A stretch of DNA of 64,000 nt. Origin: Lepas anatifera (lineage: Eukaryota; Arthropoda; Thecostraca; Lepadidae). The DNA is taken from assembly GCA_034440635.1 (NCBI GenBank), contig JAOTON010000940.1:186001-250000 (forward strand), given 5' to 3'. Shown here piece after piece: positions 5,410-62,342 of the stretch (position 1 is the stretch's first letter; every line of letters begins with the position of its first letter). The translations under genes were made by a program, and so were the position numbers. Below the pieces are notes generated by a model. That model was given only the letters and a program-made list of their open reading frames with translations, was not told the DNA's origin and ran no database searches.

Positions 5410-6313
5410 TTGACACGCGCACTGGAGGGGGGCCTCGGAGGCCCCCCACTTGTTTTTCCAAGGTGGTCAGAGAACCGCTTGTAGCCGAAAAACGAAACGT
5501 GGCCACATTTAACAGAACTTTATAGCGCGTCGATTGTTGAAGACTTTTTGAAAATCAGCCGAACATGTTTTGATTTATAGGCTTTCAAAGTCAGACCTGC
5601 ATTTTGAGATCGCCGTAAACGCGTGGTCGGACCAGTTAGCTTGCATTGAAGACTGAGTGGTGACGTCATAACGTCATATAAGCGGGATTATATGTCAAGG
5701 TCACTTCACATGAAAGTCAAGGTCAAATTCAAAGGTCACAGGTCAAGGTCATATCTGCACTTTCAAGGTCACTGACCACTGTGCGTCAAATGACGTTACC
5801 CAGTCTGCCATATATTATGCTATGACGTCATCGGTAGGGTATCCCAATACAAAGGTCAAGATCAAAGGTCATCGGGAAAGGTCAATCCTCATTTCCCGCC
5901 AAACAGTGGCTACAGTGTTAGTCAAAGTGTAAATAATAAGTAGTATACCATATGGTGACCTTAAAGGTCAATGACCTTGAATGACCTTGACCCAAAAGTT
6001 GTGGGGAAGCCTCTTTGAGACCTCTTCTCTATGAAACTTGTCTGCCTTTAGCTTATTCCCGCCATTTTCCCGCATAATCACAGCATTTACCAATCGATCC
6101 CCAGCATGGCCAATATTTGACCTTTACGACCTCGTTTGACCTTGAAGATATTGACCTAGGTCAATGAAAAATGGTCATAATGTAGACCACTATAGCCCCC
6201 ACCCACCTACCAAGTGGCGTTTTTCTAACCCTCTTAGTTTTTGAGATCTTAGGGGCCTACCAGGCCCCCTCCAGTGCGCGTTAGTGCCAGACCCCCTCCA
6301 GTGCGGGTGTTAA
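5410..6313 (-). mobile_element. TTAA element, family B copy 1 (AGGTCA-rich)
   Basis: The left boundary is TTGA (a decayed TTAA, 5410-5413) and the right is TTAA (6310-6313). The left is the single-core end: CGCACTGGAGGGGGG, then the palindrome GGCCTCGGAGGCC, then a GTTTTTCC tract. The right, read on the minus strand, is the double-core end: CCGCACTGGAGGGGG, a spacer, CGCGCACTGGAGGGGG, and the imperfect palindrome GGCCTGGTAGGCC, then GATCTCAAAAACTAAG. I count 17 AGGTCA/TGACCT hexamers in 904 bases, four of them extended to TCAAGGTCA. No coding capacity, so it must move using a transposase from elsewhere. Strand is given as the double-core end first. Confidence 0.8.
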
Positions 6314-7259
6314 GGAATTCAAAGATTCTGACGCCGATGAAGAACTAGACTGTCATGTTTTCATAGCCAAAATTTTAGATCTAAAGCATCATCTGGGCAT
6401 CACTAAACAACTACCCATGAACTTTGAATTGGGGAAAATAAAATGAGTGGAAAGTGGCAGCATCGTTTTAGCGGTTCAACACTCAGGAATCATCACATTA
6501 TAGGATGAATCATCTCCCTGGCATAAACCAAGGTCACTGAAATTTAAGTGAGGAAAAATCTAACGATTTGCTAAAAGCTAGACTTTTCAGAGTCCGAACC
6601 TACGCCACTTCGTTTTGTCCGAACCATCCCTATACCACAGCTTTGGGGGATGAGATGCTTCAACCACAGGACATTGTTGATGCCGGTGAAATAAAATCCT
6701 GAATGTTTCCGAACAGGATAAGGACGTCACATGTAAAGCTAGGGCTTAAAACATCAGTCCTAAGGTCTTTGAGATGCATCAGCTTTACGCGAAAAACTAC
6801 ATGAAAAATCTGAAAAACGAACATTTGCTATCCCTCCTGAACTTGAAATCAAAGCTGAAAGTAATTTGGTGACAACAGACCGCCATAATGGAAAGCATTT
6901 ATAGTTATAGGCTGCCTGAAATATCCCCAATAACTCTGGAGAAAATTGAGTTGCCCGAACCACCCTGTCGCTGAAACCACACCCACCCTCCCCTATGTAT
7001 TATCGGACAAATGTTTTCCAAATAATTTGGTTAAATTCCATAAAAAGATTAAAATATTTCCAGCCAGAGAAACTTTGCAGGGTCTATTTCTCGGCAGCAG
7101 CAGAACTCCACCCTTGCTTGAACCCAATCACGAAACTCGTCTCCCCTCAACCAGACAACCATTGCTTTAATTTAGAAGGGTTGCTGGGGTTTCATTGAAA
7201 CTGATCTCTCAACTCATAAAACAGGGTGCGAGTTCGGCAGCGCGCTTGCGATAGCCTCT
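6314..7259. other. no gene seen
   Basis: AT-rich DNA with only short frames. The TGCGATAGCCTCT at 7247-7259 is the left copy of the target duplication of the SINE that follows. Confidence 0.4.
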
Positions 7260-7438
7260 AATAATAATTGTTGGGATTAAGCGACACTTCAACTGCCAGG
7301 GTGAAACTTCATTGCCAACTTTCAGCCTGCAAGGGGGGATATGGTGCATCAGACCAGCATATTCAGAGGTTCCGCTGGGACATGACCCGGCACCTGCGGC
7401 TCGGAAGACATGTGCTGTTCCACTGAACCACGAATCCG
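7260..7438 (-). mobile_element. tRNA-derived SINE with LINE-like tail
   Basis: Read on the minus strand, the head has an A-box-like GTGGTTCAGTGG and a B-box-like GCCGGGTCATGTCCC. The body ends in CCTGGCAGTTGAAGTGTCGC and CCCAACAATTATTATT. That tail matches the SINE at 48118-48300 and the LINE tail at 1305-1362. Degraded direct repeats flank it (7247-7259 and 7439-7451, 10 of 13 matching). RNA polymerase III would transcribe such an element, and LINE proteins recognising the tail would copy it. Confidence 0.6.
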
Positions 7439-7559
7439 TGCGAGAACATCTCCTGGTTATAACTATTGAATTATCCTTACTTCTCGGAAGGTTTTTACCA
7501 TATTTTATGCCGCAAAACATTAATTAAGTTTTTAACAACATTACAAAAGTATAGAAGCA

Positions 7560-7872: not shown

Positions 7873-9073
7873 TTAACCCTTGCCCCGGTGGCGGGTACGA
7901 GCCACCTTCGCCCTGGTGGGGGGCTAAAAAAGACCCCCCACGATCTCAAAAACTAAGAGAGCTAGAAAAAAGCGCAAAACGGCAATCGAAAGCTCTTCGA
8001 AAATGATATCGAAAATACTTCGGTCATTTTTCTTGTCAGGTCAATATCAAGGTCACCAGAGGTCAAAATAGGTCAAAATCGCTAATATGAGGCGTACTAA
8101 GAAAACATCCTATATCTCAGAAACTATGATAGCTAGAAACATTTTTATAACACCATTCGAAAGCTCTTGAGATGCGCTTTCATTACAGTGGCACTCATTT
8201 TCGTGTCAGGTCAAAGCCTAGGGAGCTACAGGTCACTAAATATTGGGCATATTCTTGGGAATGTCCATAGCCACCCATGCATAAAGGCGTTTACTTTTTC
8301 GCTAATAGCTTCCAAACCAAACAAGATACAGCCATAGTTTATGCACCATTGCAATCCTCTCGTCAATACAAATCGAATGATATATGATATTGCTATGCCA
8401 GGTCAAATTTAAGAATTTGACCTGACCCAGGTCAACGATCTGACCCAACTTGACCTGGTATAGTCATGATGTATATCATTTGACTTCCAGTGACTATACA
8501 AACACTTTGGTGACAAAATAAAAGCTCTATCTTAGTTGATTAAAAATTTATAGAGAAAAACACCAAAAATGCTTATTTGACCTAAGGTGACCTTTTAAAG
8601 GTCACAAGTCAAAAATTTTGGTATCAGCTTCAGAAATGGGCTAAGAGCAAGTCGCAACCGATGTTTGAAGTTGATTCCATCCATACTTACTGAGAAAAGC
8701 TCATTTCGTGATTTTCCCCATGCATTGTCAATGGGGAGGTCATGCTCTGCACATGACCTTAGGTCACCAATATCAAAAATCCCGGAACAAATGTTGTAGC
8801 TCCTGGTGGGCCCAAGATGTGGTATGAGTTTCAACTTGATCGAGTAACCCTTCTTTTAGTTATGCGGTCCTAAGTATTTTTTGAGGTGAGGTCACTTCAC
8901 CTGACCTGGTGACCTGACCTGATATGACCTTGAGCTAAAATTTTCAGGAAAGATGTAAAAATGATGAAGGAACAGCTAGACCAAGTTTGGCGGAGCTGCG
9001 CGCCGTCGTTTTTTGGTCACTTTGGAAAAACCCGAGGGGGGTCTAAAAAGACCCCCACCCGGGCGAAGGTTAA
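7873..9073 (+). mobile_element. TTAA element, family A copy 1 (AGGTCA-rich)
   Basis: Flanked by TTAA at 7873-7876 and 9070-9073. The left, double-core end reads CCTTGCCCCGGTGG, spacer, CCTTCGCCCTGGTGGGG, then the hairpin GGGGCTAAAAAAGACCCC and GATCTCAAAAACTAAGAG. The right, single-core end (minus strand) reads CCTTCGCCCGGGTGGGGG, a GTCTTTTTAGAC hairpin, CTCGGGTTTTTCC. I count about 20 AGGTCA/TGACCT hexamers. It has the same length (1201 bases) and nearly the same sequence as 33948-35148, so both copies are recent. No protein-coding capacity. Confidence 0.88.
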
Positions 9074-9099
9074 CTAGCTAGTAGAAGGGTGGGGGAAGG

Positions 9100-10951
9100 G
9101 AGGAAGACCCAAGTCGAAAAGCAAAGAGATGTTAAGTTGGTTTAGAGAAGTGGTCCCCATCAAAGAACCTACTAGTGGAAAGGAAGTCCGTAAACAAATA
9201 CTGTGGAATAATGAAGCTATTCGGGTGGAATCGAAAATTATTTTCAATGCTGCATTGTACGAAAACAGTATATTGTTCCTTGATGCATTCTTTAATCATC
9301 AGGGACGAATCTTGCACAATAATTCGTTTAAGGAAAGCAGTAACTTCACACAACTGGATCCTCTTGTTTATATGGGCTGGTGCCGCGCCATTCCTGCGAT
9401 ATGGAAACGGCTTGCCGTTGTCAGTGAAACACTAACAGTTCAGGAGAAGGTACTTGAACGTGGCATAGAAGTGAAAGGGAAACTTGTCCCCGTTCAGCAG
9501 ATTAAAGTTAAATTTTTTCAAACAAATTTCTAAAGGAGATAACCCCAGAGCGCAAATCAAATTGATGAACGAAGGAGTTGAATACGGAGAAGACTGGTGT
9601 AAAGCATTATACTTACTTACATTTAACATCACGAAATCAACAAAGCTTCAAAATGTACAATATAGGATAGTTAATAGGTGTTTTCCAACTCACACATTCT
9701 TGTGCATACAAAATGTGATAGATAATTAATTCTGTGATAGGTGCGGTAACATAGAGACAATTGGTCATTTTTTTGTAGAGTGTCGAGAGGGTAGAGGGCT
9801 TGGGATGATCTAGTTAGTAAAATTTACTCAAAGCTTGCCACAACAAAACAGTTCTCTGGCACTGTTACAAACATTCTCTTTGGATCATTAGAAACAATGA
9901 ATGTTGTCAATATTTTAGTCAACTGAACTGATGCTGGCCGCAAAACAGTTTATGGTGAAACAGAGGTTTAACACGCGCATTGACGGGGGTCTGAGCCACC
10001 TTCGCTTTGACGGGGGAGCGGGTACCCGCCCTTCCCCCACCCCCTAAGATCTCAAGAACCACGCTAGGTAGCGAAAAACAGTAAACGGCGTTGGGTAGCC
10101 CATCCACTTCTCCATCGAAAATATTTGGTCCATTTTTTGTCAAGTCACATTTAAGGTCACTAGAGGTCAAAACATGCTGTAATAGGGATAACATGTAAAT
10201 GAAGGTTTTCGGTCATTGCATCCGAACAAGTAAAGATAGAGAAAAACGATTTAGACCATGTGAATCCCTGCAGCAAGCCAAATCGATTGATATATAATAT
10301 GACCTTATTAGGTCAAATCAAGGATTTGCCCTGACCTGAAGCCAGGTCAAGCTCAAAGTATATAAAATGCATATCATTAGAACCGTACAGACAAGGCAAG
10401 TCTAATGCACCTAAAATAAACGTCCTATCGTCATCCGTTGCTAAGCTATTCACTTAAAACCATTTTCCCATGTATTTCCAATGGGGAGGTCATGGCTCAT
10501 ACCTGACCTTAGGTCATTGATATCAAAAATACTGGAACATATTTTGGAGACCTTGGTGAGCCCTTTGTGTGATATGAGTTTCAATCAGATAAGCTCAGCC
10601 TGTTCCGACTTATGCTTTCTTAAACTTTTTAGGTGAGGTCACGACCTGTGCTGGTGACCTGATCTGAGATGACCTAACCTTAGGCAAAAGTTGTAAAAAT
10701 GATGAGAGAAAAGGTATGACAAGTGCGGTGAAGCTTCGCGCCGCCGTTTTATGTTATTTCCGAAAAACCCGAGGGGGTTGGTACCCGCTCCCCGTGTTAA
10801 GGATGAATAAATAAAGATGGAAGTATTTTCAAAACTTCTGAAAAAAACATTTCAAATGGAACGGTGCATAGCAAAGAAGGACAAAAGAATTGATAAGTTT
10901 AACGAGATATGGCTACCATTCATCAATGAGCATTTTGAGCTTTACATTTAG
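9100..10951 (+). pseudogene. L1/Tx1-like LINE, ORF2 C-terminus, split by a TTAA element
   Basis: Frames from about 9115 carry ILWNNEAIRV, WCRAIPAIW and, after a frameshift near 9530, NVQYRIVNRCFPTH, then a zinc-knuckle-like CDRCGNIETIGHFFVEC with an in-frame stop before it. The frame LAAKQFMVKQRF runs into TTAA at 9968 and resumes after the family D element at 10801, ending FNEIWLPFINEHFELYI at the stop 10949-10951. The order (LWNN, zinc knuckle, AK..YI/R motif, terminal W) is typical of L1/Tx1 ORF2 ends. Several stops and shifts show it is dead. The RT and endonuclease parts are absent here. Confidence 0.75.
9968..10800 (+). mobile_element. TTAA element, family D copy 1
   Basis: TTAA at 9968-9971 and 10797-10800. 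Left double-core end: CGCATTGACGGGGG, spacer with GAGCCACCTT, CGCTTTGACGGGGG, palindrome GCGGGTACCCGC, then AAGATCTCAAGAACC. Right single-core end: ACGGGGAGCGGGTACC on the minus strand, then CCTCGGGTTTTTCGG. It interrupts a LINE frame; taking it out with one TTAA restores codons on both sides. Many AGGTCA/TGACCT motifs inside. The inverted copy is at 25348-26205. Confidence 0.88.
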
Positions 10952-12322: not shown

Positions 12323-13335
12323 TTAGCACACGCCCCGCTGGGGGAGGCGAAATTCGCCCCCCTCCTGGTTTTCCCCAGATAGCTCAAAAACAAAGAGACG
12401 CAGAACAACGAACTTACAGTACCTTATTCCTGATCAATTTTACACATCTGACCAAATTTTTTAGTTAAGGTCATGTCAGGTCAAGGAGCTACTCAGGGTC
12501 AAGTGACCTGACCTCAAAACCTAAAAGTACGAGTTTGAAGCAGCGCCCAGGGAACATTAGCAAACCGATCAGTTTGAAACTTCCAAAATATGATGAGGTT
12601 ATTAGGATCTACAAGTCTGCTATATATCGGATTTTGATATTGATGACCTAAGCTGGGGTCAATTTTTCGGTCACCCCATTATAAGTCTATGGTGAAAAAT
12701 AGAATGGGTTCGTTTTCAGTAGAAACTGGATAGATAAAGCTGAAAATCATCAAACCGTCTATTCTTACCACGATCTTGACCATAAAGTTGAGTTTTTGAG
12801 CATCTGATCTCTCAAAGGTCATATCAGGTCATGGGAGCAGAGAGTGATTGTTTTGCCAATAACTTCTCACTGAATTGAGATAAAGCTTCCATTTTGCTTG
12901 CATTGAGCTCATATTATCACAGGGAGTCGATTGACATGAAACATGACCATACCAGGTCATTATGTGACCCTGATCTAGCTCGAGGTCAGGTCATTTTGAA
13001 TATTTAACCTAGCAAGGTCATATTATACATCATTCAATTTGCCGCGATAAGAGAAATCCAGTGATGCATAAATATTTGCTCTAGCTCCCCTGAGGGCAGA
13101 TATAGAGAGGGAAACGTACCCTGCTCTGTTGTAAGCCTATGGAGCCTTCTTTGACCTATGCTAACCTCAATATTGACCTGACATAAAAATTATTCTTATA
13201 AAATCTCTTCGTCTTGTCAAGATCTTTCGAACACCGCCCGTAATTTTCCTTTAACTTTCGTGGGGAACGAGATACGGAGGGGGACGCCCCCAGCGGGGCG
13301 CGTCATGCAAGGGACCCCAGCGGTCCGCGTGTTAG
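12323..13335 (-). mobile_element. TTAA-type element, family E, inserted at TTAG
   Basis: Both flanks read TTAG (12323-12326 and 13332-13335), a non-palindromic 4-bp duplication. Single-core end at left: CGCCCCGCTGGGGG, then the palindromic GGCGAAATTCGCC and CTCCTGGTTTTCCCC. Double-core end at right (minus strand): CGGACCGCTGGGG, TCCC spacer, CGCGCCCCGCTGGGGG, CGTCCCCC. The interior is rich in AGGTCA/TGACCT. Same architecture as families A to D but a different core. Confidence 0.78.
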
Positions 13336-13846: not shown

Positions 13847-14632
13847 TTAACCCTCGCCCCAGTGAGTGAGTGTTTGGAACACTCCTCAGGTTTTTCCTGC
13901 GGCACCAAAAAGGACGAAAACGACAAAATATATTTTGAAACTATTCATATGAATGACCTAGTAAGGAATGGATCATGACCTTCCAATTGGAAATGCATGG
14001 AAAAACGTTAATTGGGTGAACATGGCTAAAATTTTGTAGATACAGCATAACATGCCTTCATATTCTCCAAATCGTAGTATCCTAGGCCCTCCGCATGTTC
14101 ATGCTGCAGCTTTGGACCTGTGACCTCTTAGAGGTCAACAGGGACTAAGCAGGGACTTAAGCAGGCTAATGTTCGTCTTAGGTCATTAATTTCGCAAGAA
14201 ATGATGGCAACCGTTTATTTCAATGCCATTACGTTTAGATTAGTATTGTAGGCAGATTGATATACATATTGACTATTTTAGGTCAGATGGTGACCTTGAC
14301 CTGACCTTATATCACCTCATTTGTAGGTTGTGATCCAGTATAGTCATATACATCATCCGGTTTTCCGTAAGAAGTGGTAATGAATGGTGTCTAAAAGCGA
14401 TTCTAGCTCAATTCGAACGCAAGAGCCCAGAAACTCTTCCCTAGTCTGTCACCTTTGGCCTGTCATGACCTCAATATTGGCTTGGGACAAAAGTGACTAC
14501 AAGTTTCTTCATCCATTCTTAAGAGCTTTTCACCAGTTTTCCAGTTTTTTTGTCATCCCGAATAGGAGCCAACGTCGAGGGGGCTGTTTGATCACCAAGG
14601 GTGGCTCGGGGGCCTTCCGGGGTTTGTGTTAA
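13847..14632 (-). mobile_element. TTAA element, family F (degenerate)
   Basis: TTAA at 13847-13850 and 14629-14632. Left end: CCTCGCCCCAGTGAGTGAG, palindrome GAGTGTTTGGAACACTC, then CTCAGGTTTTTCC, matching the single-core design though the G-run is lost. The right end (minus strand) holds CCCCGGAAGGCCCC and GAGCCACCCTT, resembling the double-core spacer. AGGTCA motifs are fewer than in the other families. It may be an old or chimaeric member. Confidence 0.6.
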
Positions 14633-18989: not shown

Positions 18990-19977
18990 ATAAGTTTTGA
19001 AGTGCTGCAGCGAGGAGCATGATGATAAGTTGATAGGGTGATGATAAATTGATAAGATGGCCTGTCCCCTCGAATCCGGAAATGTAAAACCCACTGAAGA
19101 TTATATATTTAGGCACAGCCTTTCATCAGAATCGTGTAGAAAATATCAAAAATTCTCGGTCATAGTGTAGCCAGACCTCGAATTGAGCTTCACACAAATG
19201 CCTTTTAGAATGGAAAAAATGGATGTCGTGACAACAACGATCTTGGTACCTCTAACCTAAGAGTAAAGTCGACAATGCAACAACAGTAGACGAGTATTTG
19301 TGTGACAGACTCTTCTATTATTTCAGCCAAACACTAGCTGCTAAATAACAATGAAAAATTCGCTGAAGTATATTAATCGGTTATTTGCAAGCTTCTGTTC
19401 TTATGATATATTTTTTCTTTGACCGCAGCTAAAATTATAACAATAATTACTTATTAGTACACGTGATACTAGATCGGTGTAATGACTGCAAACTTTCCCC
19501 TTTAATTCAGCATAAGGCTATATCTTACTATAAATGCCTCGCTCGAACCATTTAATTAAGGTTGTACTTAGTGGTCCGGGTCAACTTATCCTTAAACTCA
19601 ATCCATTGCGTGATATTGCTTAATACGGTGTGTAATTTGTAAACCTTTTTTCCCAGCCTGCACCTCTGGCCCAACGTTAAGCGTCGAAAGAGTATACATC
19701 TGGCTGCAGAAAAGCATCATTATCTAAAAAAGACAAACGCAATACCTGAGCCGCACCTTTGACCTAAGCCCATCACTATTGACTAGTTAAACTAATTCAA
19801 AAAGTACAGCCATTTTCTCCAGCCTCTAAATCTGGCTCAAAGTTAAACGTCAAATGCATATACGTCTAGCATCAAAAGCATCATCAATAATGTATGGATG
19901 TCCTACCCCAGAACACATAATCCTACGCTAGTCCCTCCCTTACCTCTTAAACCACTGCTGTTAAATGATACCCTATC

Positions 19978-20466
19978 TTAGACCCGCATAATAGGCCAGG
20001 ACGTTCCTTTTATGTTAAGGCTGGGATGAAGATCCTGAATAATTATGAATTTGGCTATCTTTCTATCTGGATGATCACTGGCCCGATAAACTACTTTTAA
20101 CTCAAGTGGTTCTGATATAGCCTTAGTGTCTTGTGCTGCGTGTTTCTCGAGGAAATGATCTCCTAGAGGTGTGTTCCTAGTTTTATTTTTTGCGTCCCGC
20201 AAATGTTCGTTAAATCGCAATCGGACGGGTCTCATCGACTCTCCTACGTATTGGACCCTGTTTTGATCCCGGTTACACAGTCTACACTCTATTCGATACA
20301 CCACATTTTTCTGTGTGCAGTCGCTTTTAAAACCAGACCTGCATAAATGACGCCTCTGACCCCCCGGACATTTAGGCTTAGAAATGGCCGACCTAACCAA
20401 TGACGACTTAAGTTTCTTGCTGTAGAACCCCCGTATTTTATGGCTTACCGAAGGATCATAAACCAT
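19978..20466 (-). pseudogene. Penelope endonuclease domain, inverted-arm copy
   Basis: 162 codons on the minus strand with a Cys-rich lead (CPGGQRRHLC ... CTQKN), then VVYRIECRLC and YVGESMRPVRLRFNEHLRDA. These are the GIY-YIG-type nuclease hallmarks of Penelope proteins; the nuclease nicks the target so that the RT can prime. The frame is intact, but it has no RT attached on this strand because the arm was copied in inverse orientation. Its own promoter or use is unknown. Similar to the broken + strand copy at 21530-21966. Confidence 0.75.
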
Positions 20467-20467
20467 T

Positions 20468-21366
20468 AGTGCCTCTCAGACCAGTCATATCTGCCTGTGG
20501 AGGGCCAACAGAGAAAACTTCATGTTTGCTTGAGAGATTACTTAATCAACTTCTCCAGTCTGTGCCTACGCATATTTGGGATACCAAAATTTTTTGAAGA
20601 GACTCTCAAATCACACTCAATCAGAAGGCATACAAGCAGGTAGTATTTTCTTCAGCATAGACGTTGTCAATTTGTATGGAAACATACCCATTCCTGAGGC
20701 TATCAAATTGGTAGAAACAAAGCTAGACAAACATGCACATAATATCGATACTTTGGCCTCACCAAAGACATTTCTAAACTTCTCGACCAGTGTCTGAGTG
20801 ACAATGTTTTCTCATTTGGGGATCAGTACTACCGACAAAAATTGGGGTTAGCTATGGGGAATCCATGTGCACCTGCCTTGGCCATACTGTTCTTAGATAT
20901 GTTTGAAACCAATACGTTAGCCACATGTCCTGTCAAACCAGAGTTCTTGGTAAGGTACATTGACGATTATGCAGGCATCTTCTCGCATGGGCAGGAAGCT
21001 TTGGATGAGTTCCTTAGCTACATGAACAGTAGACATCCACACCTAAAATTTGCCATGGAGCACACGGGTAGTGGAAGTGGGGTGCCCTATTTGGATACAT
21101 TAGTCAAAGTAGAAACACATGGCGAAAACACTATGATAGAGACAGAGCTCAACATCAAACCAACCAACTCGGGTATCATCCTCCATAGCACATCTGCTCA
21201 TCCGACGTCTACGAAACACAATATTATCCCAAAGATGTTTCACAGGGCAATGGATAACTCATCGGGCTCAGAGAAAGAGAGAAAAAGCGTAGATAAGATT
21301 TGGAATCTGCTTCTAAAAAAATGGGTATCATGCAGGGCTTCTCAGGCGTTTGATGAGGGAAATTAG
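20468..21366 (+). pseudogene. Penelope-like reverse transcriptase (broken)
   Basis: The frame begins RPVISACGGPTEK near 20480 and, after a slip, reads SIDVVNLYGNIPIPEAIKL (motif A). A frameshift near 20795 leads to GLAMGNPCAPALA (motif B) and VRYIDDYAGIF (motif C with YIDD), then GVPYLDTLVKVE and the thumb. The catalytic aspartates are present. At least two frameshifts separate the pieces. Penelope RTs are related to telomerase RT and differ from LINE RTs. The product would copy element RNA at the nicked target. Confidence 0.82.
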
Positions 21367-21529
21367 ACTAGCTAGGACAGATAACGGAAGGTGCAAGAAA
21401 AAGAAAGAAGGCTCAGAGTCTTATGATGGGTTCTTAACCTTGCCGTACGTAGACGAACAGCTACTCTGTAAAATAAAAAGTGTCGTAAATAAATCTAACC
21501 TAAAAGTACATATAGCCTGGAAGAATAAC

Positions 21530-21966
21530 AAGAAACTTAAGTCGTCATTGGTTAGGTCGGCCATTTGTAAGCCTAAATGTCCGGAGGGTCAGAGGTGTAA
21601 TTTATGCAAGTCTGGTTTTAAAGGCGACTGCACACAAAAAATGTAGTGTATCAAATATATTCTAGACTGTGTAACCGGGATCAAAACAGGGCTCAATACG
21701 TAGGAGAGTTGATGAGGCCCGTCCGATTGCGATTTAATGAACATTTGCGGGACGCAAAAATAAAACTAGGAACACACCTCTAGGAGGTCATTTCCTCGAG
21801 AAACACGCAGCACAAGACACTCAGGCTATATCAGAACCACTTGAGCTAAAAGTAGTTCATCGGACCCGTGATCATCCAGCTAGAAAGATAGCCGAATCCA
21901 TAATCATTCAGGATTGTCATCTCAGCCTTAACATACAAGGAACGTCCTGGCCTATTATGCGGGTCT
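21530..21966 (+). pseudogene. Penelope endonuclease domain, + strand copy (broken)
   Basis: LKSSLVRSAICKPKCPEGQR then CTQKM and a stop at 21644. Later frames carry RLCNRDQNRAQYVGEL, RPVRLRFNEHLRDAK and PLELKVVHRTRDHP with further shifts. It is the same domain as the intact inverted copy at 19978-20466, so the left arm preserves the better version. Confidence 0.75.
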
Positions 21967-22930
21967 AAGATAGGCTATCATTTAACAGCAGTGGTTTAAG
22001 AGATAAGGGAGAGACCAGCGTAAGAATGTGTTCTGGGGTAGGACATCCATACATTATTGATGATGCTTTTGATGCTAGACGTATATGCATTTGACGTTTA
22101 ACTTTGGGCCAGATTTACAGGCTGGAGAAAAGGGCTATGATTGTTGAATTAGTTTAACTAGTCAGAAGTGATGGGCTTAGGTCAAAGGTCCGGCTCAGGT
22201 ATTGTTTTTGTCTTTTTTAGATAATGATGCTTTTCTGCAGCCAGAATATACTCTTTCGACGCTTAACGTTGGGCCAGAGGTGCAGGCTGGGAAAAAAGGG
22301 TTTACCAATTACACACCGTATTAAGCAATATTACGCAATGGATTGAGTTTAGGGATAAGTTGACCCGGACCACTAAGTACAATCTTAATTAAATGATTCG
22401 AGCGAGGCATTTATAGTAAGATATAGTCTTGTGCTGAATTAAAGGGGAAAGTTTGCAGTCATTACACCGATCTAGTATCACGTGTACTAATAAGTAATTA
22501 TTGTTAGCATTTTAGCTGCAGTCAAAGAAAAAATATATAAATCATAAGAACAGAAGCTTGCAAATAACCGATTAATATGCTTCAGCGAATTTTTCATTGT
22601 TATTTAGCAGCTGGTGTTTGGCTGAAATAATAGAAAAGTCTGTCACACAAATACTGGTCTACTGTTGTTGCATTGTTGACCTTACTCTTAGGTTAGATGT
22701 ACCAAGATCGTTGTCACGACATCCATTTTTTCCATTCTAAAAGACATTTGTGTGAAGCTCAATTCGAGGTCTGGCTACACTATGACCGAGAATTTTTTAT
22801 ATTTTCTACAGGATTCCGATGAAGGGCTGTGCTCGAATATATAATCTTCAGTGTTTTTACATTTCCGGATTCGAGGGGACAGGCCACCTCATCAATTTAC
22901 CATCACCTTATCAACTTAAGAAGCAAGTTC

Positions 22931-25347: not shown

Positions 25348-26205
25348 TTAACACGGGCATTGACGGGGGAGCGGGTACCCGCCCTCCCCTCGGGTTTTTC
25401 GGAGATAGCATAAAAACGGCAGTGCGTAGCGCCGCCGTACTTGGCATACGTTTTCCCCCATCACTTTTACAACTTTTGTGAAAATTTTAAGATTAGGTTG
25501 TCAGGTCAGGTCACCAGTACAGGTCAAGTGAGGTGACCTAAAAAAGTTTAAGATAGCATAAGACGGTACAGGGCGAACTTATCGGATTGAAACTCATATC
25601 ACATAATGGGCCCACCGAGTTCTCTAAAATATGTTCCGGTGTTTTTGCTGACGGTGACCTAAGGTCAGGTACGAGCCATGACCTCTCCATTGGAAATACA
25701 TAGGAAAAATGGCTTTAACTGAATAACTTAGTAAGGGATAGTAATAGAGCATTTATGTTAAATGCATTAGGTTGGTCCGTCAGTGCGGTTCTAACAATAT
25801 GCATTTTGCCAAATTTGATCTTGACCTGACCTCACGTCAGGTCAAATCCTTGATTTGATTCCTTGATTTGACCTAGCTAGGTCATATTATACATCATTCG
25901 ATTCGGCTTGCTGCGAGGATGCATGGAGTTCAATTCGTTTTTCTCTGTTTACTTTTTCAGATATAATGACCGAAAATATTAATTTACATGTTATCTCTAT
26001 GACGGCAGGTTTTGACCTCTAGTGACCTTAAATTTCACCTGACAAGAAATAGTTCAAATACTTTCGATGGAAAAATGGATGGGATACCCAACACCGTTTA
26101 CCGTTTTTCGCGGCCTAGCGTGGTTCTCGAGATCTTAAGGGGGCGGGTACCCGCCCCCCCGTCAAGGCGAAGGTGACTCAGACCCCATGTCAATGCGCGT
26201 GTTAA
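25348..26205 (-). mobile_element. TTAA element, family D copy 2
   Basis: TTAA at 25348-25351 and 26202-26205. Single-core end at left (GGGCATTGACGGGGG, palindrome GCGGGTACCCGC, CCTCGGGTTTTTCGG). Double-core end at right on the minus strand (CGCATTGACATGGGG, GAGTCACCTT, CGCCTTGACGGGGG, palindrome, AAGATCTCGAGAACC). Inverted relative to 9968-10800 and clearly the same family, with scattered substitutions. Confidence 0.87.
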
Positions 26206-29337: not shown

Positions 29338-29577
29338 ATTCAATTTAAAAAAGATAAAGATCAATTTAAAAAAGATAAAATTCAATTTAAAAAAGACAAA
29401 ATTCAATTTAAAAATACCAAACTCCAATTTAAAAAAGATAAAGTTCAATTTAAAACAGTTAAAATTCAAATTAAAATGGAGGATCGCAAGTCCAAAGGCT
29501 GCGTGACACAGAACGTGCGCTCATAAATAAATGTATATTTTATCACAGATTTACACTTTTGTACGTGCAACCTAACA

Positions 29578-33714: not shown

Positions 33715-36700
33715 GTTTTGACTTGATTGTATCCTACCTTGGCTTCGCTTCTATCTGACTGAAAGACGTGACGTTTACTCATAAACAAATCTAAATTATC
33801 TTTACTACCCCTGAGGGCAGGATGTGCCCAGGGGTCTGTTCTGGGCCCATTTTTGCTTTGCTATATCTCAGTGACCTATCTGGAAAAACGGAAAACTACC
33901 TATTATATTTTTGTAGATGATGGTAGTTTATTTTTCCCCATAGTCATTTAACCCTTGCCCTGGTGGCGGGTACGAGCCACCTTCGCCCTGGTGGGGGGGC
34001 TAAAAAAGACCCCCCACGATCTCAAAAACTAAGAGAGCTAGAAAAAAGCGCAAAACGGCAATCGAAAGCTCTTCAAAAATGATATCGAAAATACTTCGGT
34101 CATTTTTCTTGTCAGGTCAATATCAAGGTCACCAGAGGTCAAAATAGGTCAAAATCGTTCATATGAGGTGTACTAAGAAAACCTCATATATATCAGAAAC
34201 TATGATAGCTAGAAGCATTTTTCGAACATCATTCGAAAGCTCTTGAGTTACTCTTTCAGTACAGTGGCATTCATTTTCGTGTCAGGTCAAAGCCTAGGGA
34301 GCTACAGGTCACTGAATATTGGGCATATTCTTGGGAATGTCCATTGCCATCCATGCATAATGGCGTTTCCTTTTTCGCTAATAACTTCCAAACCAAACAA
34401 GATGCAGCCATAGTTGATGCACCATTGCAATCCTCTCGTCAATACGAATCGAATGATATATATATATTGCTATGCCAGGTGAAATTTAAGAATTTGACCT
34501 CACCCAGGTCAACGGTCTGACCCAACTTGACCTGGTGTAGTCATGCTGTATATCATTTGACTTGCAGTGACTATACAAACACTTTGGTGACAAAATAAAA
34601 GTTATATCTTTGTTTATTCAAAATTTATAGAGTAAAACACCAAAAATGCTTATTTGACCTAAGGTGACCTTTTAAAGGTCACAAGTCAAAATTTTTGGCA
34701 TCTTCTTCAGAAATGGGCTAAGAGCAAGTCGTAACCGATGTTTGAAGTTGATTCCATCCATACTTACTGAGAAAAGCTCATTTCGTGATTTTTCCCATGT
34801 ATTGACAATGGGGGGTCATGCTCTGCACATGACCTTAGGTCACCAATATCCAAAATCCCGGAACAAATGTTGTAGCTCCTGGTGGGCCCAATATGTTGTA
34901 TGAGTTTCAACTTGATCGATTAACCCTTCTTTTAGTTATGCGGTCCTAAGCATTTTTTGAGGTGAGGTCACTTCACCTGGCCTGGTGATGTGATCTGATA
35001 TGACCTTGAGCTAAAATTTTCAGGAAAGATGTAAAAATGATGAAGGAACAGCTAGACCAAGTTTGGCGGCGCTGCGCGCCGCCGTTTTTTGGCCACTTCG
35101 GAAAAACCCGAGGGGGTCTAAAAAGACCCCCACCCGGGCGAAGGTTAAACGTTAAAACTGTACAAACAACACTCCAAAATGATGTGAACAATTTTTTTCC
35201 TGTGGTAAGATTGGCTTATCACTTCCAATGCATCAAAAGCCATCCAACACATGTATTCGCTCAGAGCCATCATTTCGGCCTCAAAACTTGTATTTGACAA
35301 TAAACCGGTACCTATCGTCGAAAAACACAAACACTTGGGCTTTATTTTCTCCCATGACCTTAGGTTCCTCCAGCACGTTGATGTCATAGGAAAAAGTCGA
35401 CATTTTAAGGTCCTCTTTATCCCATAGCTCCTTTCTTGCCTCGCCTTGTCATGAACCAAATTTACACAATGTGTGTGAGGCCCCTCTTTGGTTACTGCGA
35501 CATAATTTACGACGGATTATTCACAATGGACGACTCCGGACGACTTAAAAGACTGCAAAACAGAGCTGCAAGACTTGTTACAGGTGCATTTCCCCGAAGT
35601 GGATCGCAAAATCTGAGGGAGGATCTTGGCTGGACATCTCTCAGTCAGACGTCAAATTAATAACCTTCATTTTTTACGTTATCTTCATGTGGCAGCCAAC
35701 TGCCTTTAATCCGAAAAAGATGGTGAATTGAATTTCGTAATATATATATTTCAACTACAAACCTACTCAAAACTGGCCAAAACAAACGGGGAACAATGAT
35801 TAGCAGGGGAAGTGGTATCGCAATAAGGCTAGCCAATACTAATGCATCTTCGGTTTAGGTTCATTTAACAAGACATTTGTAAGGTTGGTACACCATTGCC
35901 AATGAAACTGCATTAGGGAATGTTACAGCAATATTAGGAATACAACTTTTCAGGAATCAAGTTGGGGACAATACAATTGAACTACTACAATCTGGATTTG
36001 ACAATCAATCGGGACGCTACAGTCAGAACACTTGTCAGGACGCTACGTGAAACCCTGAAACGACAATGGGCTTACGCGTCAAGTGTGACGAACATGGAAC
36101 GTAAATACAAAGTTCTGTCACAAGATCTCAATCACGATAGCTGTGAAACCACTTAACAGAGTGGGGATCCAAGAGATTCAATAGCTACTGTTTCTGAGCT
36201 TAATCGACTAAGCTAATTGCGAAAAACAACGCTTACGACCGCGTGACGACGAAATTAAATGTGGCAGATGCAGCGCAACTATGCAACTATTCTGGGCTGT
36301 TTAGATCAGCTCCAGGCCTTTCTATTACTAAAACTCACTTTCTCCGGCTATTTGAGCCCCTGAGCTCGCTTTCTCAATGCTTTCAGTTTTAGTAAGGGTT
36401 CGAAGATCTCATTACTTTTACAGCAATGCCACCATTTTGCAGCTAGCCATGCTGCCGTGAGAACAGTTCAATTACGTTTGATTTAGGCCGTGTCGACCTT
36501 CACTCTGAAAGTGGCTAAGATTTACCAAATGCCACGAAACAACAAAACGAAATGCCTCGAGGCGCAATAAAGGGGCCTTCAGAAAAGCCTACGATGGCGA
36601 CCGTTACACTTTACCTCCCTCACACACCGGACTACATTACTACTACCGGAAACTCTTCCACCGGACTACCGGAAACTCTTCCAAATATTCGACAGCACAT

Positions 36701-39467: not shown

Positions 39468-41923
39468 AGGTGTTCACTGGCTTGTCCCCCCAATCCGGAA
39501 ATGTAAAGAACACTGAAGATTATATATTCGGGCACAGCCTTTCATCAGAAGCATGTAGTAAATATAAAAATTATCGGTCAAAGTGTAGCCAGACCTCGAA
39601 TTGAGCTTCATACAAATGCCTTTTATAATGAAAAATTAGATGTCGTGACAACAACGATCTTGGTACCTCTAACGTAAGAGTAATGCCGACAATACAACAA
39701 AACTAGATCAGTATTTGTGTGACAGACTTTTCTATTATTCAGCCAAACTCTAGCTTTTCATTAACGATGAAAAATTCGCTAAAGTATCTTAATCGGTTAT
39801 TTGTATATTTCTGTTCTTTTTTTACCGCAGCTAAAATGCTAACAATAACTTTAAGAGGTAACGGAGGGACCAGAGTAAGAATGTGTTCTGGGGTAGGACA
39901 TCCATACATTATTGATGATGCTTTTGATGCTAGACGTATATGCATTTGACGTTTAACTTTGGGCCAGATTTAGAGGCTGGAGAAAATGGCTGTACTTGTT
40001 GAATTAGTTTAACTAGTCAGAGGTGATGGGCTTAGGTCAAAGGTACGGCTCAGGTATTGTTTTTATTTTTTAGGTAATTTATCATTGATGATGCTTTTCT
40101 GCAGCCAGATATATACTCATTCGACGCTTAAAGGGAGATACGCGAAAAAATTATTATTGTGGTTTCTTGCTATTTGAAAAATCCTGATAACGAAACTATC
40201 AATTATTTTTGCATCTTCGGCAAAATTTTGGGAGGCCATTTACTTATTATCGAAATAGGTTAACATTTTTAATAAAACGCCCATCACTTACCCATGCCCA
40301 TACCCATCACTTACTTTTCGAAAACTATTTAAAGTTGAAAAGTAATGTTTTTTGTAATACAAATGTCTGTTCTCCAGTATTTGTATTTGAATTGATTTTA
40401 AACAACTTCTAAAAACTACAAAATGAATTAGTTTGCCCTAGAAACGGAAAAAAGATAATACTCAAATCTTCAGCGGTTTCGTACCTCAGGTCTTGAGTCA
40501 TTTTCTGCTTCGGCCCCAGGTTGACAAAACTTTTGCGTCAGATAGGTCACGTGACCCCGGTTTGAGAATTCCTAGACTTCTGATTGGTTAATTGTGATTT
40601 CTTTTAAGCCCTATATTTCTGTTTCAAAAGAGTTTTGGAATGTTGTTTTCTAAAGTATTTTTTTCTGTAGTAGTCCACAGTTCTACATCACTGTTTAGGA
40701 TAGATATGACCGAATTCTTAGAGAAATTGATAGCCTTAGCCGTGTGTACGTCATATACATCGATATGAGGTGTACCCGTAAAGTCGTCTAGAAATGTTGA
40801 CTTTGAGAGCAATTTAAGGCATTTGCAGGCCGAATTCGCAAAAATGAGAATAGGACTTCTGAAACTTTTTGTAACCTTTTGATATAGCCAATATATTTTT
40901 TCGTGTATCTCCCTTTAACGTTGGGCCAGAGGTGCCGGCTGGGGAAAGGGGTTTGTTAATGATTGATCAGATCAACTAGCGCACAGAGATGGATTGATTT
41001 TAGGGGTACGTACTGGGGTTGGGGTTTTGAAATATGCAAATAATTATTGATGATACTTTTCTGCAGCCAGACGTATACTCATTCGACGCTTAACGTTAGG
41101 CCAGAGGTACAGGCTGAGGAAAAGTATTTACCAATGATTGATCACATTAACTAGCTATGAGAGATGTATTTGTTTAAGGGGTACATACTATGGGGAAAGG
41201 TTGTTAAATAAGCCCATATAATGTAAAAATTGGTAATGTTTTTTTGCAGCCAGACGTATACTCATTGGAGGCTTAACGTTGGGCCAGAGGTGCAGGCTGT
41301 GAAAAGGGTTTATCAATTACAAACCGTATTAAGTAATATTACGCAATGGATTGTGTTGAGGGATAAGTTGACCCTGACCACTAATTACAATCTTAATTAA
41401 ATAAATGCAGTCATTACACCGACCTAGTATCACGTGTACTAGTGCTAAATAAGTAGTTATTGCTAGCATTTTAGCTGCGGTCAACTAAAAAAATAAAATA
41501 AAAATAATAATAAGAACAGAAATATACAAATAACCGATTCAGATACTTCAGCGAATTTTTCATTGTTAATGAAAAGCTAGCGTTTGGCTGAATAATAGAA
41601 AAGTATGTCACACAAATACTGGTCTAGTTTTGTTTTATTGTCGGCATTACTCTTAGGTTAGAGGTACCAAGATCGTTGCTGTCACGACATCCAATTTTTT
41701 ATTCTAAAAGGCATTTGTGTGAAGCTCAATTCGAGGTCTGGCTACACTATGACCGGTAATTTTTTATATTCATATTTACTACATGATTCTGATGAATTGC
41801 TGTGCTTGAATATATAATTTTCAGTGTTTTTTACATTTCCGGATTCGAGGAGACAGGCCAGTCAACACCTTATCAACTTATCATCATACTCTTCGCCGCA
41901 GCACTTTAAAGCCTTTCAACGTT
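39468..41923 (+). mobile_element. Penelope-like element, terminal arms only
   Basis: A left arm (about 39468-39850) is the inverse of the right arm end (about 41440-41923), and both match the arms of the element at 18990-22918. There is no RT or endonuclease. A perfect 14-bp duplication flanks it (TAAAAAGTTATTTA at 39454-39467 and 41924-41937). The middle contains about five tandem copies of a 150-190 bp subrepeat with GCAGCCAGACGTATACTCAT and TTAACGTTGGGCCAGAGG, against two in the other copy. A TTAA transposon has inserted into one subrepeat (40132-40914). Confidence 0.82.
40132..40914. mobile_element. 783-bp TTAA transposon with AGGGAGATAC ends
   Basis: TTAA flanks at 40128-40131 and 40915-40918. 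Inverted ends AGGGAGATACGCGAAAAAAT and, on the minus strand, AGGGAGATACACGAAAAAAT. Removing it with one TTAA restores the subrepeat text GACGCTTAACGTTGGGCC. The interior is AT-rich and lacks a transposase, so it is non-autonomous. TTAA duplication is known for the piggyBac and Kolobok superfamilies. Confidence 0.82.
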
Positions 41924-41937
41924 TAAAAAGTTATTTA

Positions 41938-42319
41938 TCGAATATTTCGAATATATTGGACGATTCCTTATCTTGTTTTATATACATTACCAGAAACCAA
42001 ATCCCGAAAAACCTTAAAGCTGATATGATATACTATTCTGTACTATTGAATTTTTCAGCCCCATGGGTAGCGTCGTGGGACCTTGGCGACGGGGGGAAGA
42101 AGGGGGAACAAACACAATGTACGAAAGCCAAATTTGGGACGCAAATGTATTGGCGAAATAAAAACACACTGTCATCTGGCAAGCTTGCACAGACGATTTT
42201 TGACACCTAGGTGTTAACCTATCCTGACCTATCCCGTCGGCCGCGTCGCCACATGTGTACCCTCGTCAACTAGCACCTGCCCCGCCCCGTCGTCAGCGAT
42301 GGTCCGTGGGGGGCAGAAT
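41938..42319. other. no gene seen
   Basis: Non-coding stretch between the Penelope-like copy and the minisatellite. Confidence 0.4.
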
Positions 42320-42795
42320 CTGCACTTTCCCGGCGTCAGCGATGGCTAGTGTCTGACCCTTGTCGGCTGGTATCTGCCCCTTCCCGCCGTCAGCGATGGC
42401 TAGTGTCTGACCCTTGTCGGCTGGTATCTGCCCCTTCCCGTCGTCAGCGGTGGCTAGTGTCTGACCCTTGTCGGCTGGTATCTGCCCCTTCCCGTCGTCA
42501 GCGATGGCTAGTGTCTGACCCTTGTCGGCTGGTATCTGCCCCTTCCCGTCGTCAGCGGTGGCTAGTGTCTGACCCTTGTCGGCTGGCATCTGCACCTTCC
42601 CGTCGTCAGCGATGGCTAGTGTCTGACCCTTGTCGGCTGGTATCTGCCCCTTCCCGTCGTCAGCGGTGGCTAGTGTCTGACCCTTGTCGGCTGGTATCTG
42701 CCCCTTTCCGTCGTCAGCGGTGGCTAGTGTCTGACCCTTGTCGGCTGGCATCTGCCCCTTCCCGTCGTCAGCGATGGGGAGTGTCTGACCCCTTC
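42320..42795 (+). repeat. 54-bp minisatellite with 3' splice-site-like units
   Basis: Eight full 54-bp periods, marked by CTGAC at 42353, 42407, 42461, 42515, 42569, 42623, 42677, 42731 and 42785, plus a partial unit at the left. Each unit reads GTGTCTGACCCTTGTCGGC ... TATCTGCCCCTTCCCGTCG TCAG. That is a CTGAC branchpoint-like motif, a pyrimidine tract, then CAG 37 bases after the branch A. Open frames on both strands (18-residue repeats) follow from the period being a multiple of three. The array ends about ten bases before the endophilin exon, whose acceptor looks like a variant of the same unit. Confidence 0.9.
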
Positions 42796-42807
42796 CACCG
42801 TCGGCAG

Positions 42808-42923
42808 CGTCGCCACTGCCTTCGCCGATGCGGTCACCAGCACGCACACCCAATGTGCAGAGTCCCTGCGCACAGGCGCTGTTCGACTTCGAGCCGGAAA
42901 ACGCCGGCGAACTGGGATTCAAG
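42808..42923 (+). CDS. EndoA: endophilin A exon: linker end and first part of SH3 domain
   Basis: The frame gives a Pro/Ser/Arg-rich linker (SPMRSPARTPNVQSPCAQ) then ALFDFEPENAGELGFK, the first strands of the endophilin A SH3 domain (ALYDF motif). It ends AAG|GTAAGG, a canonical donor at 42924, in phase 0. It joins the exon at 58162 to give a complete SH3 domain. Endophilin A is a BAR-SH3 protein that bends membrane and recruits dynamin and synaptojanin in endocytosis and synaptic vesicle recycling. Vertebrate and insect relatives share the PEN.GELGF text; endophilin B does not. The start is uncertain: AG at 42806-42807 is my choice, but AG at 42840, 42860 or 42875 are possible. A TGA at 42786 in this frame bars a start further left. 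The BAR exons are not in the window. Confidence 0.85.
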
Positions 42924-47162: not shown

Positions 47163-47170
47163 GTGTGAAC

Positions 47171-57278: not shown

Positions 57279-57281
57279 ATG

Positions 57282-59470: not shown

Positions 59471-61554
59471 GCGTTCATTTCTAAGCACTGGGAGAATGGG
59501 GGGCGAATGACGCTCTGGATAAGGGTCGTCAACGTTGTGGTGTCTCGGAAGAATCGCTTAAGAGAGGTTTGGCGTTTTTGAGAGGGAAATACAGTCGTTT
59601 TACTCAAAGTAAATACGCTATATTTCACCTAATGGAATTTAGGTGAAAACGTATATTTCTGCTGCGTTGTATCTCAGTCTCTGCGCGACGGCCCCCCCCC
59701 CCGACCCAACTTGAGGCTGTGCCCGTGGGGTATCGCTGCTAGCGTGAGAAGAATATAGTTTTTGTTCGCGCCCGAGTTATCATAAATGCCAGTCGTATTT
59801 CGGAAACGTACCAACGGTCCAAAAAGGTCTGAATTCACCTTTAGTGGGTATGCGGCGCTATGAAGAAATGATAAGCTGTAACACGACGTGTCTTCGATGT
59901 AGTGATTGAAACTGAACACTTGACCGATTTGAATAGACAGCGTCAGAAACTATAATATCTCGATGCACTTTTTTATTTGGATGGGTGCCTCTGTTAGCGT
60001 GGCACAGTAGGATCAGACAGAAAGGCTCCGCCCAGCGTATACATGTTGCGAAGGGATAAAATGCAATCAAGTTGAATCTGCACACTTATATTCCACATCA
60101 CATAGCACATGCGTTAAAAAGACTCCTAAGTACAGTCACAGGGAAGGCAATAGGTAGGTATTACAGCGGAACACGTCCACTTAGCCGCACTTCAGGACGC
60201 AAGGCTATGAATTGATTACAGACATGTGGCCGAATTATTTGTGGACGGCTACCCCGACACCCGCAAAGGCCGCGCGCGGCGGGAGGGAGCTGGGCTGCGA
60301 GTGGTGGTGTCTAATTTCGGCAAGTGGGGCATTCCACGACAAATCGATGGGTTGAAATAACACCCTCATATCTCAGACTTTCATGAAATTTTGGGGCTAC
60401 GGTTCTCAGTGGCGCTGAAAACGACTGTGGTATTTTTAGTCTCGTCCGGGTAATGGTTTCGAAGTTATAGCCTCGGGCAATCCATCGAACGCGTGCATTG
60501 GACTTTTCACTTGAGTTTTTAGTCATTTAAATTGACGGTATTCGTACAAGAGGTTACATGAAAATAATCGCAAAAGTCTGAACAATACAAATATGTAAGT
60601 TTAATTATGTTAATTGGCAAGAATGTATATAAAATGCAATTCCAAACTATTGAAAAGATAAGCATACATACTTCCTATGTTTTTATTGACTTCAAAACAC
60701 CTTCATGTGAAAGAGCATTGCTTAAACTACATATAACGCCAATAAAAAGAATGGAGTCCACATAGCAAAATCAGTACCGAGCACCGCAGTACCAAGCCCA
60801 ACACCGTCGCAGGCCACTCAGCCTGCAGTCGGCACGCCGCATAGACCCGTCCGGTTGGTAGTGGTGTAACGGGGAGGGGAGAACTAAGCAAGACTGCGTT
60901 TCGGTAACTCTGCGAATGAACTTGATGTGGGGTGGAGGTTACTATTGCTAACAGAAAAATTTGAGCCGTTCCGAAAAAATGAACATTTTACGAGAACATA
61001 CGGAACAGTTCCGACACTCTGGTGCATTTGCTGGAAAATGTAGTGGGAGGATTATGCGTCAGAAGCCGATTATTACTGTTGTCTTAGGTTTGTTTTAGAT
61101 AGTTTTCTTTTTCTACCCATACTCTAAAAAAGTGTGATGTATCCCAGTTCAATTTATATTAGAAAGCACATATCACAGGCAAAAACCCACACAACGTCCA
61201 CGCCGACAACCGCTTTTCGAACATATAAGATTAAGACATGCTACTTTATTTAAGATGTGACCCTCGGAACGAAAGAAGGACTCCAACACGGGCGCCATTG
61301 AATTTCACAGATTCAATGTGAAACTCGAACCTTCTGTCCCTCATCATTCGAGAGCTCATGGACAATAACGGTCTTCTAATTAACCGGTACGAACTTGTGA
61401 ATCTTCAATGTTTCTTTTCTCGTGATTGCCTTATCGAAGCGTTTTCTGAGCTCAGTAGCTAATTTGAGTGCTTTTTGTTAAAGCATTTTCGGTAGAGATC
61501 GAGGCAAGCAATGGAACACTGCTTTCCGTTTTCCCTTCCAAGCATGTTTGCTGA
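59471..61554. other. no gene seen
   Basis: A poly-C run lies at 59691-59702. Nothing else recognised. Confidence 0.4.
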
Positions 61555-61623
61555 GATCGCAGGGGGATGGGTACCCCCCATGCCAGTAAAGGTGGCCCGG
61601 GGCCTCATACCAGCGCGTGTTAA
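61555..61623 (-). mobile_element. double-core end fragment of a TTAA element (family G)
   Basis: Read on the minus strand from TTAA (61620-61623): CACGCGCTGGTATGAGG, GGGCCACCTT, TACTGGCATGGGGGG, TACC, CATCCCCC, TGCGATCTCAGC. This is the double-core layout with yet another core. The rest of the element to its left is not recognisable, so it is truncated. Confidence 0.55.
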
Positions 61624-62342
61624 CAAGCACACGGGAGAGGAGCCTCGGAGGCCCCCACCTACTTTTTGCAGGTGGCCGGAGAACACTTCGTGGCAAAAAA
61701 ACGCTATCTAGCTACTTTTGAGAATAGTCAATGGCACGTCGATTGGTCAAATAATCTTGAAAATCTGCCCCAATTTTGTAATTATAGGCTTTCAAAGATA
61801 AACCCATTATTTTGAGATCGCCGCAATCGCGCGCTTGCACCAGTTTGCATGCATTAAAGACCGACTGGCAACGTTACAGCGTCATATAAAACGAGATTAT
61901 ATGTCAAGTTCACCCCACATGAAGGTCAAAGTCACAGTTCAAGGTCATACCAGCTTTCTCAAAGTCATTGGTCCGGTGCTTCCCGTCGCATGGCATTGCC
62001 CAGTATGACGTATATTATACTACGGCGTCATAGTTCAGATAACTCAATGTAAAGGTCAAGGTCACAGGTCAAAGTAAAATCGAATGGGTAAAGGTCAATC
62101 CCCATTCCCCGTCCAACAGTTGCTATGGTGCTAGTCATGGTGTAATTATAGGGAATATGCCATATTGTGACGTCATAGGTCAATGACCTTGAATGACCTA
62201 AGCCCCAAAAATTAAGTGAACACTTTTTGGGACGTTCGCACTATGAACTTGGTCTATTTTAAGTGCACTCTGGACTTCCTTGCGCTTAATCACGGCATTT
62301 CCGGGTGAATACCCAGCACGGCTAATACTTGGCCTTTTCGAC
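61620..62342 (-). mobile_element. TTAA element, family B copy 2 (truncated)
   Basis: The single-core end begins at TTAA 61620-61623 (ACACGGGAGAGGAGCCTCGGA, CTTTTTGCAGG). The text follows family B copy 1 through its AGGTCA-rich interior, but it stops at about 62342 where a CAGTGGCGG-type element begins. The double-core end is missing. It shares its TTAA with the family G fragment. Confidence 0.75.

Follow-up and report, generated by a model that had tools for sequence, protein, structure and literature searches.

One-core and two-core ends in TTAA elements of the barnacle Lepas anatifera and their relation to piggyBac

A 64,000-nucleotide stretch of the Lepas anatifera genome (contig JAOTON010000940.1, positions 186,001 to 250,000; hereafter the window) contains ten TTAA elements and one additional end fragment built with one-core and two-core ends. 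The one-core end (S end) consists of TTAA, a core ending in a G-run, and a palindrome; the two-core end (D end) consists of TTAA, a core, a spacer, the core again, and a palindrome. Our analysis indicated that these elements are very probably non-autonomous members of the piggyBac superfamily, from the clade that groups with the piggyBac of Trichoplusia ni (T. ni), a reading that we hold jointly with the mechanism given below. They are new families of an already known kind, namely piggyBac with T. ni-type asymmetric ends. The first-pass annotation, made from the letters of the window, had supposed that this layout was undescribed. This was not borne out: the layout is the one by which the left and right ends of T. 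ni piggyBac differ from each other, as described by Chen et al. (PMC7351741). The annotation's other general claim, that all families share one plan, is supported. Short, devoid of transposase and present in many copies, the window elements have the properties of miniature inverted-repeat transposable elements (MITEs).

End geometry, coding relatives and the piggyBac assignment

Twenty ends were examined, which are those of the ten elements minus the absent end of A2, plus H1. Exact TTAA was present at 17 of them, and the remaining three were one base off (TTGA, TTAG and CTAA). The best direct repeat of the D end had an offset of 27 or 28 bp in nine of ten cases and of 29 bp in the degraded G1; compared with shuffles, it reached p<0.05 in seven of ten (B2, 0.08; H1, 0.07; G1, 0.44). 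The best palindrome in the expected range was significant at p<0.05 in 8 of the 20 ends, lay between 0.058 and 0.085 in four, and was not significant in eight. Palindrome centres were found at 23.5–26 bp in nine of ten S ends (C2 at 21.5) and at 50–53.5 bp in six of ten D ends (A1, B1, B2, C1, E1 and E2).

The whole genome (1.04 Gb, 2126 contigs) was then searched with a core-neutral D-end pattern, which fixes TTAA, part of the lead, the spacer CCACCTTCGC, the G-run, and the distance ranges between them. This gave 15,873 matches on the forward strand and 37,161 on the reverse strand, the latter number being inflated by overlapping reports of single sites, while the reversed control gave 0 and 0. 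Neither the D-end pattern nor piggyBac proteins had any match in the viral_contigs and genome_contigs collections.

An autonomous member between the same ends, for which the first-pass annotation had proposed to look, was sought in the same genome, and transposase-coding elements were found with B ends, with E ends, and with the ends of a further family, Q. A search of the genome with PF13843 (DDE_Tnp_1_7) gave 120 matches (711 candidates, 116 scored). The loci read comprised 30 of this search, three extensions, 18 further stretches (the last four picked via a protein search), and two of six protein-search loci. Locus-to-locus comparison revealed five families (I–V) with plain C-rich terminal inverted repeats (TIRs), both ends being read for I–III and one end for IV and V. 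The sixth family, Q, has the one-core/two-core layout, with both ends present in L042, L045, and L055. Families I–V were ruled out as partners of the window elements, as no second core was found in the ends read.

The Q element of L042 (476-4749, 4274 bp) has an S palindrome centred at 24 and a D end with an offset of 27 and a centre at 50. Its open frame covers 711 aa, or 672 aa counted from the first Met, and scores 218.7 bits with PF13843. Among solved structures, its best match was T. ni piggyBac (6x67, E 3e-70); piggyBat (9c0f) matched at 5e-26. L049 352-4931 has B ends, which enclose transposase pieces of 414, 241, and 144 aa, and L063 139-4818 has E ends, likewise enclosing transposase pieces. 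B2 1-629 and 663-858 align to the two sides of L049 at 78% and 86%, and E1 1-862 and 839-1201 align to those of L063 at 89–90%, so that, judged by alignment, internal deletion of coding elements gave rise to the window's B and E elements. TTAA was present at both ends of L042, L045, L049, and L063. A direct repeat with an offset of 27 or 28 bp is present in the D ends of the Q, B, and E coding elements (p 0.002, 0.002, and 0.008) and absent from their S ends; none of the 12 ends of six other barnacle lineages (I–V and L018) showed one at p<0.05. Among the genome loci read, none was recognised as a coding parent of A, C, F, G, or H. These families were placed by their layout and, except for A and H, by interior homology.

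The order CxxC..CxxC-x4-CxxH..CxxC of the cysteine-rich domain (CRD) was found in L042, L049, L050, L063, and L065. The same order occurs in a moth piggyBac protein (P0012), which is 99% identical to the T. ni protein. It had no match in 11 other barnacle loci tested, some of them with broken C-termini. Among nine other barnacle lineages, the seven with a readable C-terminus end, by eye, in C..H arrangements, which is another CRD type. A tree was built from 20 transposases, L063 not being among them. In it, L042, L049, and L050 formed one clade (100/99), grouped with eight piggyBac proteins that the T. ni search had found, and the separation of the nine other barnacle lineages had 100/100 support. 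Since the lineages that have two-core ends share ancestry, the link of CRD order with end layout rests on one or two evolutionary events, and the present families are one data point for it. Guerineau et al. (2021, PMC8086355) found that end organisation and CRD fold are not correlated in a straightforward way.

By analogy with the T. ni complexes, the S end would be the equivalent of the left end and the D end that of the right end. The outermost core of each end would be gripped by a catalytic transposase dimer, whose two CRDs would also bind the palindrome beside the single core of the S end. At the D end, a second, non-catalytic dimer would occupy the inner core and the palindrome, resulting in an asymmetric synapsis. 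Excision would take place via TTAA hairpins and be followed by insertion at another TTAA. One transposase lineage would read every core and palindrome of a family, and these would consequently change together.

Several observations weigh against this assignment and mechanism. The two-dimer model is a proposal of the structural paper itself (PMC7351741). There is no piggyBac transposase in the window, where no piggyBac profile match was better than E 3.7, and the coding B (L049) and E (L063) copies carry interrupted frames. The D palindrome of L063 is not significant (p 0.25), and L050 retains just part of a D end. No CRD match was obtained in L062, a copy of Q in which another residue takes the place of the first Cys, or in L064, whose transposase lies beside an H-type D end. 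The tree tool flagged long branches for L050, L036, and L018. Within the window, the D palindrome centre falls outside the range in C2 (59.5) and, without significance, in F1 (46.5), H1 (46), and G1 (49.5). The tip CCYT is present in 7 of the 20 ends, and 19 of the 20 start with C. The piggyBac terminus is given as CC[C/T]T in PMC2872659. A piggyBac survey reports CACTA and CCCAT tips as well (PMC10813416), so that CC[C/T]T is not universal in the superfamily. Finally, L018 604-3559 (transposase reading strand) belongs to another clade and differs in its CRD order; one of its ends carries a palindrome at 24.5 bp (p 0.024) and the opposite end a weaker one at 52.5 bp (p 0.06), with no second core. 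Palindromes at these places thus occur outside the clade as well, the two-core end and not the palindrome marks it, and the 25/53 palindrome asymmetry may predate the T. ni-type clade. In family I, AT-rich stretches resembling palindromes lie at 23.5 and 24.5 bp and are not significant.

Two other origins were considered for the elements as a whole. Kolobok, the other TTAA superfamily, has TTAA target sites in common with them. But Kolobok termini are 5'-RR (PMC9587614), and none of the 20 window ends begins with RR; moreover, the coding elements with B, E, and Q ends have piggyBac transposases. Kolobok was rejected on these grounds, the refutation applying to B, E, and Q, and we consider such an origin exceedingly improbable. 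A new TTAA superfamily unrelated to piggyBac might have acquired the same layout by convergence, and the letters of the cores and palindromes are indeed unlike those of the T. ni ends. However, the Q transposase matches T. ni piggyBac with an E-value of 3e-70 and groups with it in the tree. Convergence is refuted for B, E, and Q by the coding elements, and we attach next to no likelihood to it.

Agreement of cores and palindromes within elements

It had been claimed in the first-pass annotation that the cores and palindromes are family-specific and agree within each element. Three comparisons were made, which set the S unit against the D inner unit, the S core against the D outer core, and the D outer core against the D inner core. 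With the six families A, B, C, E, F, and G, the matched pairing ranked 1 of 720 in all three. With family Q added, it ranked 1 of 5040, again in all three. As a control, the matched pairing of the adjoining flanks ranked 506 of 720, and 3185 of 5040 with Q. The claim is confirmed by these rankings, which also give the outcome of the check that had been suggested with it, a comparison of core agreement within and between families: the within-element pairing beats all others.

Further evidence came from the genome matches. Of 59 distinct D ends among the matches listed, assigned to families B, C, and E only, 57 had both cores of one family and two were ties, with no swap. Their offsets were 26 (8), 27 (25), 28 (25), and 29 bp (1), a distribution partly set by the search pattern. 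In A1, the central letters of the two palindromes disagree, and they do so in its genome copies too.

Coevolution with a family-specific protein, or else homogenisation, had been named as the cause. Our analysis favoured the coevolving protein as the best reading, because transposase-coding elements with B, E, and Q ends coexist in this genome, each with its own CRD sequence, and because the flanks show no agreement and the B and Q, and the E and Q, transposases go with different ends. The B and Q transposases are 45–49% identical over their longest matches, and those of E and Q are 35–48% identical in the two best pieces. Homogenisation is retained as a possible process.

The opposite view, that end duplication or gene conversion rather than selection by the protein makes the cores and palindromes agree, is in our judgement improbable. 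Conversion is possible as a process, with three core copies lying within one short element, and the unmasked halves of A1 exceed all shuffles (30 vs 27). However, no family-specific match was found between the S and D flanks, and a recent inverted duplication is disfavoured for this reason. With the motifs masked and the end units removed, the halves of none of the six families rose above the shuffle maximum, A1 being the closest (28 vs 31). An inverted-duplication origin was rejected, as the element halves are no more alike than shuffles once the motifs are masked. That the B and Q transposases, at the identity given above, go with different ends also speaks against duplication or conversion as the cause. 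An even weaker case can be made for a chance effect of G- and C-runs in GC-rich tips. G-runs do push the between-family scores up (mismatched mean 6.9), and taken singly, the palindromes of 8 of the 20 ends lack significance; but the matched pairing beats all other 5039, and the reversed D-pattern control matched 0 times in 1.04 Gb, compared with 15,873 matches on the forward strand for the pattern itself. We regard chance as barely conceivable here, and coevolution with a family-specific transposase continues to be the preferred explanation.

Interiors, inventory and surroundings

The interiors of the elements are rich in AGGTCA/TGACCT, which we take to be nuclear-receptor half-sites. There are 150 of them in the 9577 bases of the ten elements, compared with 30 in the other 54423 bases of the window (28x density). 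Each element has 9–21, and 200 shuffles gave at most 4. The positions of the motifs, which were masked before alignment, coincide across families: 8 for E-C, 8 for E-B, 9 for E-F, 6 for E-G, and 5 for B-F, numbers that no shifted control reaches. Coincidence was weaker for C-B (0.012), C-F (0.029), F-G (0.032), and B-G (0.087). None was found for C-G, and A compared with each other family gave 0 or 1, which is not significant. Interior homology is common to families B, C, E, F, and G (weakly in G); between family A and the other families, homology is limited to 39 bp adjoining the D end.

In the coding elements L042, L045, and L049, AGGTCA/TGACCT occurs at 2.6–3.9 per kb, and the 4680 bp of L063 contain 23 copies. 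The density is 0–1.5 per kb in nine elements (one partial) from six other lineages, and 1.1 per kb in L044, whose ends are unconfirmed. In eight near copies of A, differences from the consensus numbered 6/864 at motif positions versus 81/5504 in the remaining interior. Helical phasing of the sites was not detected in five of six families (p>0.08 at all three periods; C1 0.009–0.032), and a search for a tandem unit of about 170 bp in the interiors gave weak lags only. Interior folding was compared with 20 shuffles for each of five elements and was stronger in every one (z −2.3 to −7.4), which may be a consequence of the complementary motifs.

Apart from binding by a host nuclear receptor or a transposase, the AGGTCA arrays are genuinely unexplained. 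We tentatively suggest, as a possibility that we rate below even chances, that the arrays of 9–21 sites are a working design selected during spread, in which a host nuclear receptor or the transposase of the clade binds the interior and aids amplification. Should this be true, the elements would scatter hormone-receptor sites genome-wide; the forward strand by itself holds about sixteen thousand matching ends. Our literature search found no paper joining AGGTCA with MITEs or with transposition.

A genome search for copies of A1 gave 7735 candidates, of which 40 were scored, and all of these cover at least bp 5-903 of its 904. Seven of eight fetched copies share a flank of more than 600 bp on each side, placing A1 within a larger repeat. 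Because of these common flanks, part of the A copies can be said to have spread inside a larger repeat, and many A copies may have spread as its passengers.

All ten elements that the first-pass annotation listed, as families A to F, are real and lie where it placed them, with the losses and decay given in Table 1 for A2, B1, F1, and G1; the D end H1 had been overlooked. H1 was first spotted by eye and was also matched by a profile of the ten elements that did not include it (E 2e-7).

Table 1. Elements with one-core (S) and two-core (D) ends in the window
Element	Positions	Strand	Family	Ends	AGGTCA/TGACCT	Remarks
A1	5410..6313	+	A	S 5410 (TTGA), D 6313	17	
E1	7873..9073	-	E	D 7873, S 9073	21	Coding counterpart L063 139-4818
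B1	9968..10800	-	B	D 9968, S 10800	12	S core deleted
F1	12323..13335	+	F	S 12323 (TTAG), D 13335 (CTAA)	13	D palindrome decayed
G1	13847..14632	+	G	S kept, D degraded	10	
C1	23330..24362	-	C	D 23330, S 24362	20	
B2	25348..26205	+	B	S 25348, D 26205	14	Coding counterpart L049 352-4931
E2	33948..35148	-	E		16	94.7% identical to E1
C2	43082..44106	+	C	S 43082, D 44106	18	D palindrome centre 59.5 bp
H1	61478..61623	-	Further family	D		Cores CTGGTATGAGG and CTGGCATGGGG; TTAA at 61620-61623 common with A2
A2	61620..62342	+	A-like	S only	9	Truncated, no D end

The arrangement at window positions 61478-62342, in which an H-type D end and an A2-type S end share a TTAA, recurs with this TTAA or a near match in L025 (around 4095) and L064 (around 493). 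Nested insertions were also seen in the genome. Family I elements with plain TIRs lie at TTAA inside an A-type element (L025 240-4097) and a B-type element (L035 43-4350), and in L053 a C element is split by a family IV-like insertion, the TTAA being imperfect on one side.

Other repeats occupy the window as well. A Tc1/mariner-like transposase (31905-33086) is flanked by inverted arrays of 21-bp repeats (29339-33612 in all). Long inverted repeats, presumably Penelope-like, are found at 19058-22858, where they surround a GIY-YIG reading frame, and at 39566-41860. There are 54-bp tandem repeats at 42210-42857 and GGGGCCC-rich repeats with a period of about 22 bp at 62501-63295. The long interspersed nuclear element (LINE) protein of the window has 67 relatives, and 11 of the 13 with a named source are from the barnacle Amphibalanus amphitrite. 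Protein P0131, which is listed in a cyanobacterial metagenome bin, is 76% identical to the LINE protein of the window and is probably contamination of that bin.

Comparison with known piggyBac systems

The asymmetric piggyBac end has been termed puzzling and enigmatic (PMC7351741). In this one genome, the spacing is nearly fixed while the core, the palindrome, and the CRD sequence vary by family, and piggyBac lineages with another CRD order, with no second core in the 12 ends tested, can be set alongside for comparison. The CRD-palindrome code and the need for asymmetry thereby become directly testable. The matched ends and transposases of these families form natural sets, from which mutually orthogonal piggyBac systems might be obtained.

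Another barnacle, Amphibalanus amphitrite, also has piggyBac families, some of them young (PMC10813416); that survey excluded MITEs, and the part of it consulted makes no mention of palindromes. Human and invertebrate piggyBac-like elements resemble the window elements in being TTAA elements whose two ends each carry subterminal palindromic repeats; unlike in the window, no two-core layout was seen for them in the accessible text (PMC12324416). The TTAA MITEs of coral, CMITE, are likewise of piggyBac type, with interiors more conserved across families than the tips. They differ in being about 100 bp long with 13–14 bp TIRs, and no two-core end, palindrome, or AGGTCA array is reported for them in the sections seen (PMC2872659). 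The piggyBat of Myotis shares asymmetric ends and sites made of a core motif and a palindrome, which in piggyBat are on the left end. Unlike the window elements, it has three left-end sites 44 bp apart, a right end without such a palindrome, and a CRD of different fold (PMC11707139, in part).

The closest likeness is to T. ni piggyBac. Its left-end palindrome lies at bp 17-33, and bp 34-63 of its right end are almost identical to bp 7-35 of its left end; the right end has a duplicated core, and the palindrome common to both ends is bound by the transposase CRD (Chen et al., PMC7351741). When the T. ni ends were scored with the same script, the palindrome centres were at 25 and 53 and the offset was 27 from bp 7; the end sequences used agree with two details printed in that paper. 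The window elements differ from T. ni piggyBac in the unrelated letters of their cores and palindromes, in the many families per genome, in palindromes merged with G- and C-runs, and in the inner AGGTCA arrays. They correspond to its LE35/RE63 (PMC7351741) in having TTAA at both ends and one core with a palindrome facing core, spacer, core, and the same palindrome. They also correspond to it in an offset of 27–28 versus 27 and in better-kept palindrome centres at about 24 and 52 versus 25 and 53, and their coding relatives share its CRD order and its PF13843 transposase.

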